NCBI GenBank assembly: GCA_017402895.1
Contig: JAFPLG010000025.1
Coordinates: 1 to 11,778 of the forward strand
DNA: 11,778 nucleotides
Direction: 5' to 3'
From: Paludibacteraceae bacterium
GTDB lineage: Bacteria; Bacteroidota; Bacteroidia; Bacteroidales; Paludibacteraceae
A model generated the notes under the pieces. It worked only from the letters and a program-made list of their open reading frames with translations, did no database searches and was not told where the DNA came from. The translations under genes and the position numbers were made by a program. This document shows, in pieces, positions 8,750-11,778 of this stretch. Position 1 is the first letter of the stretch. Each line of letters begins with the position of its first letter.

Positions 8750-10219
8750 ATGTCTCTTGCCATCGGATTCGATAATGAGAAATACATCCGTATCCAATCG
8801 GAGCATATCCGCCAGCGAATAGCTAAGTTCGGTAACAAACTGTATCTGGAGTTCGGTGGTAAGTTGTTTGACGATATGCATGCCAGCCGTGTGTTGCCGG
8901 GCTTCCGTCCCGACAGCAAACTGGCTATGCTCACCCAGTTGCGCGATACGCTGGAGATAGTGATCGTTATCTCGGCTTTTGATATCGAGAAGAACAAGGT
9001 GCGCCAGGACCTGGGTATTACCTACGACGAAGACGTGCTGCGTCTGCGCGATGAGTTTATGTCGCGCGGCTTCCTTGTCTCGTCGGTTGTGATTACCCAC
9101 TATTCCGGTCAGCGGTCAGCCGATGCTTATCGTCGCAGACTGGAGCGCCAGGGTATCAAGGTCTACTATCACTATATCATCGAGGGTTATCCGCATAATG
9201 TAGAGCTTATCGCTTCTGATGATGGATTTGGTCGAAACGACTACGTCGAGACCTCTCGTGAGTTGGTTATCGTGACAGCTCCCGGACCCGGAAGCGGGAA
9301 GATGGCCGTCTGTCTAAGCCAATTATATAATGAGCACGCGCGTGGACGCGACGCGGGATATGCTAAGTTCGAAACCTTCCCGGTTTGGAATTTGCCACTT
9401 CGCCACCCGGTCAATGTGGCTTATGAAGCGGCTACGGCCGATCTCAACGATATCAACATGATTGATCCCTTCCATTTGGAAGCATACAACCAGACGGCTA
9501 TCAACTACAATCGAGATGTTGAGATCTATCCCGTGCTGGATGCGATATTCACATCTATCTATGGCCAGAATCCCTATAAGTCGCCTACCGATATGGGCGT
9601 TAACCAGGTAGGTTTCTGTATCTCGGATGATGCCGTGTGCTGTGAGGCGAGCAAGCAGGAAATCATACGCCGCTATTTTGCGGCTCTCAATCGTTTGGCA
9701 AAGGGAGATTGTAATGATGCAGAGGTGCAAAAACTGGCGATGCTTCAGAAGCAAGTAGGTATCAATACAGCCTATCGTCGCACAACAGTGGCTGCACGCG
9801 AACGCAAAGAACAATCCTTAGGAAATGCTTCGGCGGCTATCGAACTGCATGATGGTACGATTATCACGGCCGAAGCCTCACCCCTATTGGGGTCCTCTGC
9901 TGCGCTGTTACTTAATGTGGTTAAGTACTTGGCAGGTATAGAACACGAGGCGCGACTTATTCCCGATGAGATGATCCAGCCGGTTCAGCATACAAAGATA
10001 TCCTACCTACACGGCCATAATCCACGTCTTCATACCGATGAAGTTCTTGTAGCCCTCTCTGTGCTATCTTTGCATGATGAGCGATGTGAACGAGCACTTG
10101 CCACGCTGCCTCAGTTGGCCGGTTGTCAGGTCCATTCTACGGTTATGCTCTCTGAGGTGGATACCAAGACATTCAAAAAGCTTCGCGTTGACCTTACGTG
10201 CGACCCATCCAAATCATAG
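8750..10219 (+). CDS. DUF1846 (UPF0371) family protein
   Basis: A 489-residue full-length member of a widely conserved family of unassigned function. Recognisable family stretches are GFDNEKYIRIQSEHIRQRI (6-24), LYLEFGGKLFDDMHASRVLP (31-50), DIEKNKVRQDLGITYD (78-93), the glycine-rich APGPGSGKMA (177-186), FETFPVWNLPLRHPVN, and YKSPTDMGVNQVG. The APGPGSGKMA segment looks like a phosphate-binding loop but is not a standard Walker A, since Met replaces the final Ser/Thr. No signal peptide or membrane helix is visible, so it should be cytoplasmic. It probably shares a transcript with rluB upstream and with the TIR gene only 6 nt downstream, which hints at co-expression but does not establish a functional link. 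Confidence 0.93.
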   Translation: MSLAIGFDNEKYIRIQSEHIRQRIAKFGNKLYLEFGGKLFDDMHASRVLPGFRPDSKLAMLTQLRDTLEIVIVISAFDIEKNKVRQDLGITYDEDVLRLRDEFMSRGFLVSSVVITHYSGQRSADAYRRRLERQGIKVYYHYIIEGYPHNVELIASDDGFGRNDYVETSRELVIVTAPGPGSGKMAVCLSQLYNEHARGRDAGYAKFETFPVWNLPLRHPVNVAYEAATADLNDINMIDPFHLEAYNQTAINYNRDVEIYPVLDAIFTSIYGQNPYKSPTDMGVNQVGFCISDDAVCCEASKQEIIRRYFAALNRLAKGDCNDAEVQKLAMLQKQVGINTAYRRTTVAARERKEQSLGNASAAIELHDGTIITAEASPLLGSSAALLLNVVKYLAGIEHEARLIPDEMIQPVQHTKISYLHGHNPRLHTDEVLVALSVLSLHDERCERALATLPQLAGCQVHSTVMLSEVDTKTFKKLRVDLTCDPSKS

Positions 10220-10225
10220 TACACC

Positions 10226-11554
10226 ATGTCCTACGATGTCTTCATCAGCTATTCTCGCCACGACGAGGTGTTCGTTGAGCGTCTGACGGCCCAACTCGAT
10301 GCGCTGGGCTATTCCTATTGGATTGATACCACCGGCATCGAGAGCGGGGATGTGTTCAAGAAGAATATCGTTAAGGCTATAAAGGCCTCGCGCGTCGTGC
10401 TCTTCGTTTCGTCGCGCCATTCTAACGAGTCCACGTGGACCACGCGCGAGATCAACTACGCTATCCACAACGGCAAGCCCATTATCCCGATACGTGTTGA
10501 TGGTGCTGACTATAACGAGGTGCTGCAGTTCGATCTCGAGATACTCGACTATGTCGATTGTACCCGCATGTCGCGCTATGCAGAGGGGTTTGAACGCTTG
10601 GGCAGAGCATTACTCCAGTATTTCCCCGAGCGTGCAGAGGAGGCTACGTCTTCTTCGCGTCGCTGGCGTCTCTCGCGTCGTATGCGCCGAGTGCTTATTA
10701 TTTTGGCTTGCGTGCTGGGTATAGGCCTTTGTGTAGGTGGAGTGGGGTATGCTGTCTATCGCTATGTCGTGTCCGACCACTCGGACGAGGTGGATGTCTT
10801 TGTCTATGCCTACGACTGGCAAACCATGACGGCCCGGCTGGATGTCGTCCTCTATACGCCCGACCTGACTGAGGCGGTTATTCCTTCTTCGGTCGAGTAC
10901 GAGAATCGTGAGTTCCGCGTCACCGGCATCGGACCTTCTGCGTTCGACGCATGTCCTTTCTTGACCCGTGTTACGATTCCAGAGACGGTCACTTCTATCG
11001 GTGAACGGGCGTTTCGCAACTGCTCTTCGCTCACAGAGGTCGTTATTCCCGGTACGGTCACCAGTATAGGACAGGATGCCTTCCCCGAGGCGTGCCGCGT
11101 CACCTATCCCGGAGGCGGGCGCGTTGACTTGGCGGCCTTGCACAAGGCGGTCACTGAGGATATCACGTCGTTTTGTCTCTACTCTGATTTGTTGACCGAG
11201 CCGCGTGACACGTTCTTTCTAAGCAATCCTGGACACCATATCGACCTCCGTATCGATACGCTCGGCCGTTTCTATATCTACAACGGCACGATTCACGACC
11301 TTATCTACGATCTGGGGGACCGCTCGTTCGGCGAGATGAACTTCCTGCCCACCAGCGACGGCCATAACGCCATCCCTGTCTGCCTCCACCATGCCTATGT
11401 GCTCAAGTGGTTGCGTTATAGCGAGAAGTATCGTTTCGAGTATGGCGACGGCTACTATTACATGAAGCTTCGCGTCGATAGCCTCTCCACCGACGAACAA
11501 GGTCGCCCCATCTCCGCCTCTATCCGTTGGTGTTCCTGGGATCCCTCGAGGTAA
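10226..11554 (+). CDS. TIR domain - transmembrane - leucine-rich-repeat protein
   Basis: A 442-residue protein. TIR domain at about 1-115: YDVFISYSRHDE (3-14), BB-loop region WIDTTGIESGD (32-42), and STWTTREI with E75 in the position of the catalytic glutamate of NAD-cleaving TIRs. An Arg-rich stretch (seven Arg within 145-155) precedes one hydrophobic helix (about 156-178), so by the positive-inside rule the TIR faces the cytoplasm and the rest the periplasm. Residues about 190-296 are BspA-type LRRs (LRR_5): three units at about 214-245 (with an insertion), 246-268 and 269-291, pattern LTxVxIPxxVTSIGxxAF. Residues 297-442 form a domain I do not recognise, rich in aromatic residues. No Thoeris-like partner lies beside it in the window. 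A role in sensing or signalling is inference. Translation starts 6 nt after the DUF1846 stop. Confidence 0.88.
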   Translation: MSYDVFISYSRHDEVFVERLTAQLDALGYSYWIDTTGIESGDVFKKNIVKAIKASRVVLFVSSRHSNESTWTTREINYAIHNGKPIIPIRVDGADYNEVLQFDLEILDYVDCTRMSRYAEGFERLGRALLQYFPERAEEATSSSRRWRLSRRMRRVLIILACVLGIGLCVGGVGYAVYRYVVSDHSDEVDVFVYAYDWQTMTARLDVVLYTPDLTEAVIPSSVEYENREFRVTGIGPSAFDACPFLTRVTIPETVTSIGERAFRNCSSLTEVVIPGTVTSIGQDAFPEACRVTYPGGGRVDLAALHKAVTEDITSFCLYSDLLTEPRDTFFLSNPGHHIDLRIDTLGRFYIYNGTIHDLIYDLGDRSFGEMNFLPTSDGHNAIPVCLHHAYVLKWLRYSEKYRFEYGDGYYYMKLRVDSLSTDEQGRPISASIRWCSWDPSR

Positions 11555-11572
11555 TTAGCATCCTATTCCGAT

Positions 11573-11603
11573 AATCGTCGCCGAAAAGGTGGCGATTTTT
11601 TTT
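11573..11603 (+). terminator. Intrinsic terminator after the TIR-LRR gene
   Basis: A 9-bp stem, ATCGTCGCC (11574-11582) with GGTGGCGAT (11588-11596), includes two G-U pairs, closes a GAAAA loop and runs into eight T. It starts 18 nt after the stop codon and marks the end of the rightward transcription unit. Confidence 0.9.
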
Positions 11604-11635
11604 GCTTATACTGTTCTTACGGTGAGATTCGCCTA

Positions 11636-11690
11636 ATCTAACGTGTATCTAACGTATATCTATCGTATATCTATCGTATATCTAACGTGT
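11636..11690. repeat. 11-bp tandem array, half A
   Basis: Five contiguous 11-bp units: ATCTAACGTGT, ATCTAACGTAT, ATCTATCGTAT (twice), ATCTAACGTGT. Unit length is constant, with changes confined to two positions. The heptamer ATATCTA recurs at 11656, 11667 and 11678. It lies downstream of the terminator, and no convincing gene covers it. Confidence 0.93.
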
Positions 11691-11692
11691 TT

Positions 11693-11778
11693 GACATGAT
11701 ATGGACATGATATGGACATGATATAGATATGAGGTAGATATGAGGTAGATATGAGGTAGATATGGTATTGACATGTGA
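11693..11778. repeat. 11-bp tandem array, half B (runs to window edge)
   Basis: After a 2-nt junction come GACATGATATG (twice), GACATGATATA, GATATGAGGTA (three times), GATATGGTATT and a final unit cut at 9 nt (GACATGTGA). The heptamer TAGATAT, the exact reverse complement of half A's ATATCTA, occurs four times at the same 11-bp spacing (11724, 11735, 11746, 11757). The array probably continues beyond the window. Confidence 0.93.

Follow-up and report, generated by a model that had tools for sequence, protein, structure and literature searches.

The window, meaning the whole stretch of DNA analysed, is an entire contig of 11,778 nucleotides from a Paludibacteraceae bacterium. Its last gene encodes a protein with an N-terminal TIR domain, one predicted membrane helix, a stub of LRR_5-type leucine-rich repeats (LRRs), and a further C-terminal domain (Table 1); the window genes scanned beside it (nine window ORFs, Pfam) are housekeeping. 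None of 21 readable relatives of the preceding DUF1846 gene has a TIR gene within 1.2-1.5 kb downstream (by eye), so the TIR gene looks accessory at this site; the 21 are what remains of 25 loci after removal of the window itself (L114), two loci with no ORF (L137 and L138), and one with 29 bases downstream (L133). A similar long downstream ORF is shared by 13 of the 21 (by eye, from printed starts), and the only one of the 13 compared with Pfam, that of L115, is a TonB plug protein. Past the TIR gene, the AT-rich contig end has 11-bp tandem repeat arrays at 11636-11775, and the GC content of 11555-11778 is 36.2%.

Table 1. Features of the TIR gene and its immediate surroundings, in window coordinates.
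Feature	Position	Strand	Basis or remark
DUF1846 gene	8750..10219	+	6 bases upstream of the TIR gene, possibly co-transcribed
Whole gene (TIR, helix, LRR_5 stub, C-terminal domain)	10226..11554	+	ORF, ATG start, 442 aa plus stop
TIR domain, residues 1-135	10226..10630	+	Pfam TIR_2; AlphaFold TIR fold
W71...E75, WxxxE motif of NADase TIRs	10436..10450	+	Alignment with solved TIRs
Arg-rich stretch before helix, residues 145-155	10658..10690	+	Charge count
Single predicted membrane helix, residues 156-178	10691..10759	+	Hydropathy, AlphaFold
LRR cap plus about three repeats of BspA type, residues 189-294	10790..11107	+	
C-terminal domain, residues 295-442	11108..11551	+	Profile relatives, exported lipoproteins, some DUF5036
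Terminator-like hairpin with T tract, immediately past the gene	11573..11605	+	10 pairs, consensus match only

Judged by codon comparison, the ORF is a genuine gene under purifying selection, because a full-length relative at 60% identity shows such constraint. This relative (P0002, also G021:C22, 444 aa) was found in both the homologue and the family-genome searches, and its record, JAFWOU010000023.1, is a Paludibacteraceae MAG from sheep omasum, of the same genus as the query. Over all codons dN is 0.35 and dS 1.88 (near saturation and therefore rough). By part, dN and dS are 0.36 and 3.1 for the LRR part and 0.77 and 2.1 for the linker and helix (dS rough in both), and 0.39 and 1.02 for the C-terminal part; dN is 0.22 for the TIR, where synonymous sites are saturated. 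Another protein, P0004, is 44% identical to the query across 99% of its length. Both have the query's order of TIR, helix, LRR_5 and C-terminal domain, and they are, apart from the window's own gene (P0001, 99% identical), the full-length relatives among the best 120 of 2231 homologues. Besides G000, G021 has the sole full-length match at 1e-25 in 200 family genomes (best 8 candidates per genome).

The TIR domain matches Pfam TIR_2 at residues 5-125 (E 2.6e-26), and the AlphaFold model has a TIR fold at about residues 1-135. The hallmark of catalytic (NADase) TIRs is a glutamate in the alpha-C helix together with a tryptophan four residues earlier. Here W71 (TGG, 10436-10438) and E75 (GAG, 10448-10450) align with the W...E of AbTIR, BtpA/TcpB, and 3h16, and by this alignment the domain carries residues of the catalytic type. 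E75 is invariant in 8/8 aligned sequences, the query among them. Among 69 distinct TIR ORFs the position is E in 64 and the earlier one is W in 44; this sample, which includes the query, is biased to TIR-rich loci, having been drawn mainly from one genus out of loci retrieved for a TIR or homologue match, and it covers part of the genus TIR_2 rows. The best solved relatives by sequence are bacterial TIRs (best E 4e-7), followed by SARM1 (2e-5) and Toll-like receptors (about 4e-4). Among defence profiles, the best in PADLOC is the short-Argonaute TIR (2.4e-17); for Thoeris, in which a ThsB-type TIR is paired with a ThsA-type effector, Pfam ThsB_TIR is above its cut-off, the best PADLOC ThsB value is 6.6e-8, and NCBIfam ThcB4 scores 41.7 bits against a cut-off of 220. 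No ThsA-like match was found among the nine window ORFs scanned, the TIR gene being the last on the contig. AbTIR, ThsB, SPARTA TIR-APAZ, and SARM1 share the fold and the WxxxE motif with the query, but are not known to act with an ectodomain of this kind; for the query, a place in the membrane and a part in the periplasm are predicted.

The top hydropathy segment of the protein is residues 156-174, with a Kyte-Doolittle value of 2.65 that was reached by 4 of 2000 whole-protein shuffles. AlphaFold places a helix at 152-182, where pLDDT is low (31-52), and the full-chain model, with a mean pLDDT of 62.8, is weak apart from the TIR and LRR. The 15 residues N-terminal of the helix include seven K/R and no D/E; by the same rule the K/R count ranges from 0 to 7 across 13 other helix-bearing proteins and is 0 in P0122. 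The original prediction of a complete TIR domain with E75, a strong Arg cluster, and one predicted membrane helix at 156-178 is confirmed at the level of sequence. The predicted topology has the TIR in the cytoplasm and the LRRs and C-terminal domain in the periplasm, and it is independently supported because stand-alone relatives of the C-terminal domain look like exported lipoproteins.

The LRR part is short. Pfam LRR_5 matches residues 234-288 (E 2.5e-14, 53.7 bits against a cut-off of 27.7), spanning positions 2-55 of the 127-position model, which corresponds to about three repeats. Residues 295-442 (148 residues, one third of the protein) form a further domain that the original prediction did not include. 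A profile of this domain (A5) finds L108, L109, L110, and L113 at E values of 3e-15 to 2e-11, and Pfam PF16439 (DUF5036) matches L109, L112, and L113 above its cut-off (3/5) and L108 and L110 below it. L111 was dropped from these relatives as weak, on the opposite strand, and without a signal peptide. By eye, the stand-alone relatives have a signal peptide and lipobox at their start. Comparison of the domain itself (11108-11551) with Pfam gave no credible match, PF16439 being unlisted at E values up to 10. By profile, then, the domain has relatives among exported-looking Bacteroidales lipoproteins, including DUF5036 proteins; it is called related rather than a member because the DUF5036 link runs only through the relatives (L108-L110, L112, and L113), and DUF5036 lipoproteins differ from the query in standing alone and looking exported.

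A fold search suggested that the C-terminal domain might be HmuY, which profile comparison did not support. With a shallow profile of low power, hhalign with eight HmuY proteins gave a probability near 0 and the HmuY global score was 1.2, while 40 column shuffles averaged 2.6; HmuY Pfam PF14064 was unlisted for the domain. Since H389 is the sole invariant histidine in a three-row alignment, there is no case for two-histidine haem ligation. A viral home for the domain was also considered and rejected, as none of 204 pattern-matching stretches was confirmed.

When the query is set beside the seven nearest proteins of the same chassis, the TIR is 63-98% identical over four kinds of ectodomain. 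The query, P0002, and P0004 have the LRR stub and C-terminal domain, P0005 and P0007 have long LRRs, P0030 has short LRRs alone, and P0121 and P0122 have YD/RHS-like repeats without LRRs (by eye; RHS_repeat gives 0.049 for P0121, below its cut-off, and nothing for P0122). Two pairs illustrate this: P0121 and P0122 are 98% identical in the TIR but 53% in the ectodomain, and P0007 and P0030 are 90% identical in the TIR but 36% in the ectodomain, with ectodomain borders set by hand and certain pairs aligning over few columns. A family of sensors would be expected to show exchange or rapid change of the outer part while the inner part stays fixed; for the two pairs, looser constraint outside is another possible explanation. 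The near-constant TIR with a changing ectodomain and the C-terminal domain's kinship with exported-looking proteins are the strongest new facts of this analysis, and, if these TIRs signal from the periplasm, the two pairs would offer a direct route to the sensed ligand by domain swapping.

The query is not alone in having an N-terminal TIR followed by one helix and a C-terminal part. This layout occurs, with at least 60 residues after the helix, in 34 of the 69 TIR ORFs; the others have no helix (21), more than one helix (3), or a TIR that is not N-terminal (11). TIR_2 is present in 37/101 genomes of the query's genus. TIR_2 and LRR_5 occur together in 11 of the best 120 of 2231 homologues (precomputed Pfam), and the TIR and helix part used alone as query matched 5/393 order genomes at 1e-17; a search of the 393 order genomes with P0005 was swamped by LRR-only matches (best 4 candidates per genome) and no count was taken. 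A helix is predicted in P0002, P0004, P0005, P0007, P0020, P0028, P0030, and P0110. Of these, P0005, P0007, P0030, P0020, P0028, and P0110, and L091 by regular expression, resemble the query in having an N-terminal TIR, one helix, and LRR_5, but the number of LRRs varies between about three and many, and neither the alignment nor Pfam scans showed an equivalent of the C-terminal domain. P0035 and P0041 are TIR-LRR proteins without a predicted helix, as are two proteins of L097 and one each of L087 and L014, in which LRRs were counted by regular expression; the L097 pair sits in tandem (L097:1793-4645). Since such helix-less proteins exist, envelope sensing does not follow from the mere presence of LRRs on a TIR. 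The C-terminal modules on N-terminal TIRs (Pfam) include LRR_5, VWA, FGE-sulfatase, WD40, and RHS repeats, and because LRR_5 is only one of several, a family with exchangeable ectodomains is a better statement than a reversed Toll-like receptor.

The protein had originally been described as Toll-like-receptor parts in reverse order with BspA-type LRRs. The one-chain layout of TIR, helix, and LRR holds, as does the LRR type, which is LRR_5 above cut-off, but there are only about three repeats. Animal Toll-like receptors likewise have the LRR outside, one helix, and the TIR inside (a topology predicted for the query); however, their LRR is N-terminal and forms a long horseshoe, and their TIR is C-terminal, the reverse of the query (TIR at 5-125, LRR at 234-288). 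Domain order, LRR type, and a TIR nearer to bacterial TIRs led to the rejection of homology with Toll-like receptors, and on these sequence grounds the likeness is one of layout, not kinship. The original prediction also allowed that a family with this architecture might already be established. The layout does recur among homologues, but no description of a bacterial TIR-TM-LRR protein was found in the open-licence literature searched, as far as the accessible portions of those sources go, including those of PMC7075850, PMC13142454, PMC8195603, PMC9153377, PMC8635717, PMC9122126, and PMC13232231. Prokaryotic TIRs are reported in diverse architectures (PMC7075850, PMC8635717), and some TIR proteins with short extra domains, transmembrane regions for example (PMC9153377); a preprint by Yirmiya on the systematic discovery of TIR-based systems is cited in PMC13232231; an earlier description of bacterial TIR-TM-LRR proteins may therefore exist.

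On balance, the protein is probably a single-chain envelope sensor, a single-pass protein of the inner membrane whose cytoplasmic TIR makes an NAD-derived signal, although this is favoured only somewhat. Its small periplasmic ectodomain would consist of a lipoprotein-type beta domain and about three BspA-type LRRs that serve as cap or spacer, and would bind, or lose contact with, an envelope component such as a surface polymer, a lipoprotein, phage, or foreign material. The chains would then cluster and the TIR domains assemble, and the assembled TIR would use E75 to convert NAD+ to an ADP-ribose type signal or to deplete NAD+, serving defence or envelope-stress signalling. In favour of this reading stand the TIR fold with W71 and E75, the positive-inside flank of the one helix, the exported-looking kin of the C-terminal domain, the changing ectodomain on a conserved TIR, and the gene neighbourhoods with SIR2-TIR, STAND, and RyR genes described below. 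Counted against it are the helix-less TIR-LRR proteins, the uneven positive charge before the helix among relatives, the housekeeping genes in the window, the lack of RyR and SIR2-TIR matches in G000 (59% complete), and the small binding surface that about three LRRs provide.

An unlikely alternative is an envelope housekeeping or stress protein in which the TIR, working as scaffold or polymerising adaptor in the manner of MyD88-type assemblies, tethers periplasmic modules and has neither NAD chemistry nor a part in defence. The scanned window genes are indeed housekeeping, MyD88 TIR assemblies appear among the fold matches of the query TIR, and the VWA, FGE-sulfatase, and WD40 modules of relatives are generic; however, the conservation of E75 given above (8 aligned sequences, 64/69 TIR ORFs) and the placing of TIR-TM genes of the genus with SIR2-TIR, STAND, and RyR genes at several loci argue against this alternative. 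SIR2-TIR relatives at 1e-40 occur in 5/121 genus genomes, and in 5/5 of these loci (L078, L079, L174, L175, and L176) the gene adjoins one for an nSTAND1-type NTPase. The G021 orthologue, which differs from the query in its site, does not follow DUF1846 but has efflux-type genes (by eye) on one side and a WG-repeat gene on the other, with three genes between it and a SIR2-TIR and nSTAND1 pair and a TIR-TM-FGE gene about 11 kb off on the same strand, where the ORFs read are all on one strand. At L175:13285-18913, two protein-kinase-like proteins (by eye, first residues) lie near the SIR2-TIR/STAND pair.

The same associations bear on a quite improbable reading, that of an abortive-infection effector whose ectodomain only anchors or restrains it and which is activated by a cytoplasmic STAND or SIR2-TIR partner rather than an envelope signal. 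The SIR2-TIR and STAND pair near the G021 orthologue, with three genes between, is consistent with this, as are N-TIR-TM genes in the stretch read at 4/5 SIR2-TIR and STAND loci (L078, L079, L174, and L176, not L175) and the toxicity to amoebae of amoeba TirC minus its N-terminal helix, as reported in PMC13142454. A pure anchor, however, leaves the change of ectodomain on an unchanged TIR unexplained, the C-terminal part is constrained (dN and dS as above), and G000 (59% complete) has no SIR2-TIR match. A recent chance fusion, with the helix serving an exported protein and the TIR carried along without use, would account for there being few full-length relatives (G021 at 1e-25; P0002 and P0004 in the best 120 of 2231) but is very improbable given relatives at 60% and 44% identity, constraint in the compared parts, and many other TIR-TM-X proteins.

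A wider form of the envelope-sensor reading is possible but tentative, namely that the Bacteroidales have a family of single-chain transmembrane TIR receptors, constant in the cytoplasmic TIR and with exchangeable, rapidly changing periplasmic sensors, whose ADP-ribose type signals would be read by RyR, STAND, or SIR2-TIR proteins. The triggers would be envelope events such as phage adsorption or foreign lipoproteins or polymers, and the family would be a bacterial counterpart of cell-surface pattern-recognition receptors, evolved apart from Toll-like receptors. Descriptions of bacterial TIR defences place most of them in the cytoplasm; if membrane TIRs signal from the periplasm, bacteria would hold separately built receptors resembling Toll-like receptors.

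RyR matches above cut-off number 28 (of 31 rows, three below cut-off being omitted) and fall in 15/101 genus genomes. A TIR_2 match lies within 10 kb of 19 of the 28, in 9 of the 15 genomes (80 of 86 TIR_2 rows used, the window's own and the five lowest omitted), and the share of a 2.1 Mb genome within 10 kb of a TIR is at most 0-10%; for the remaining nine matches, in 6 of the 15 genomes, the contig carries no TIR_2 match. No RyR match was found in G000, at 59% completeness, and the link concerns the TIRs of the genus in general, not the query protein. The phage members of the RyR domain degrade or sequester cADPR signals according to PMC13232231, and a TIR-RyR gene link in the genus would hint at cellular readers of TIR-made ADP-ribose signals.

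Several minor features of these loci were also observed. RyR genes are present in 3/5 SIR2-TIR and STAND stretches. A protein of 183-203 aa, sigma-factor-like by eye, lies beside an RyR-domain protein, with TIR genes in the same stretch, at L079:1134-2595, L095:6288-7770, L176:5452-6913, and L177:11208-12951; the two of these proteins compared with Pfam gave no match. Between TIR-TM genes at L091:4527-7096, another gene has on either side a multi-helix membrane protein, and the two of these begin alike.
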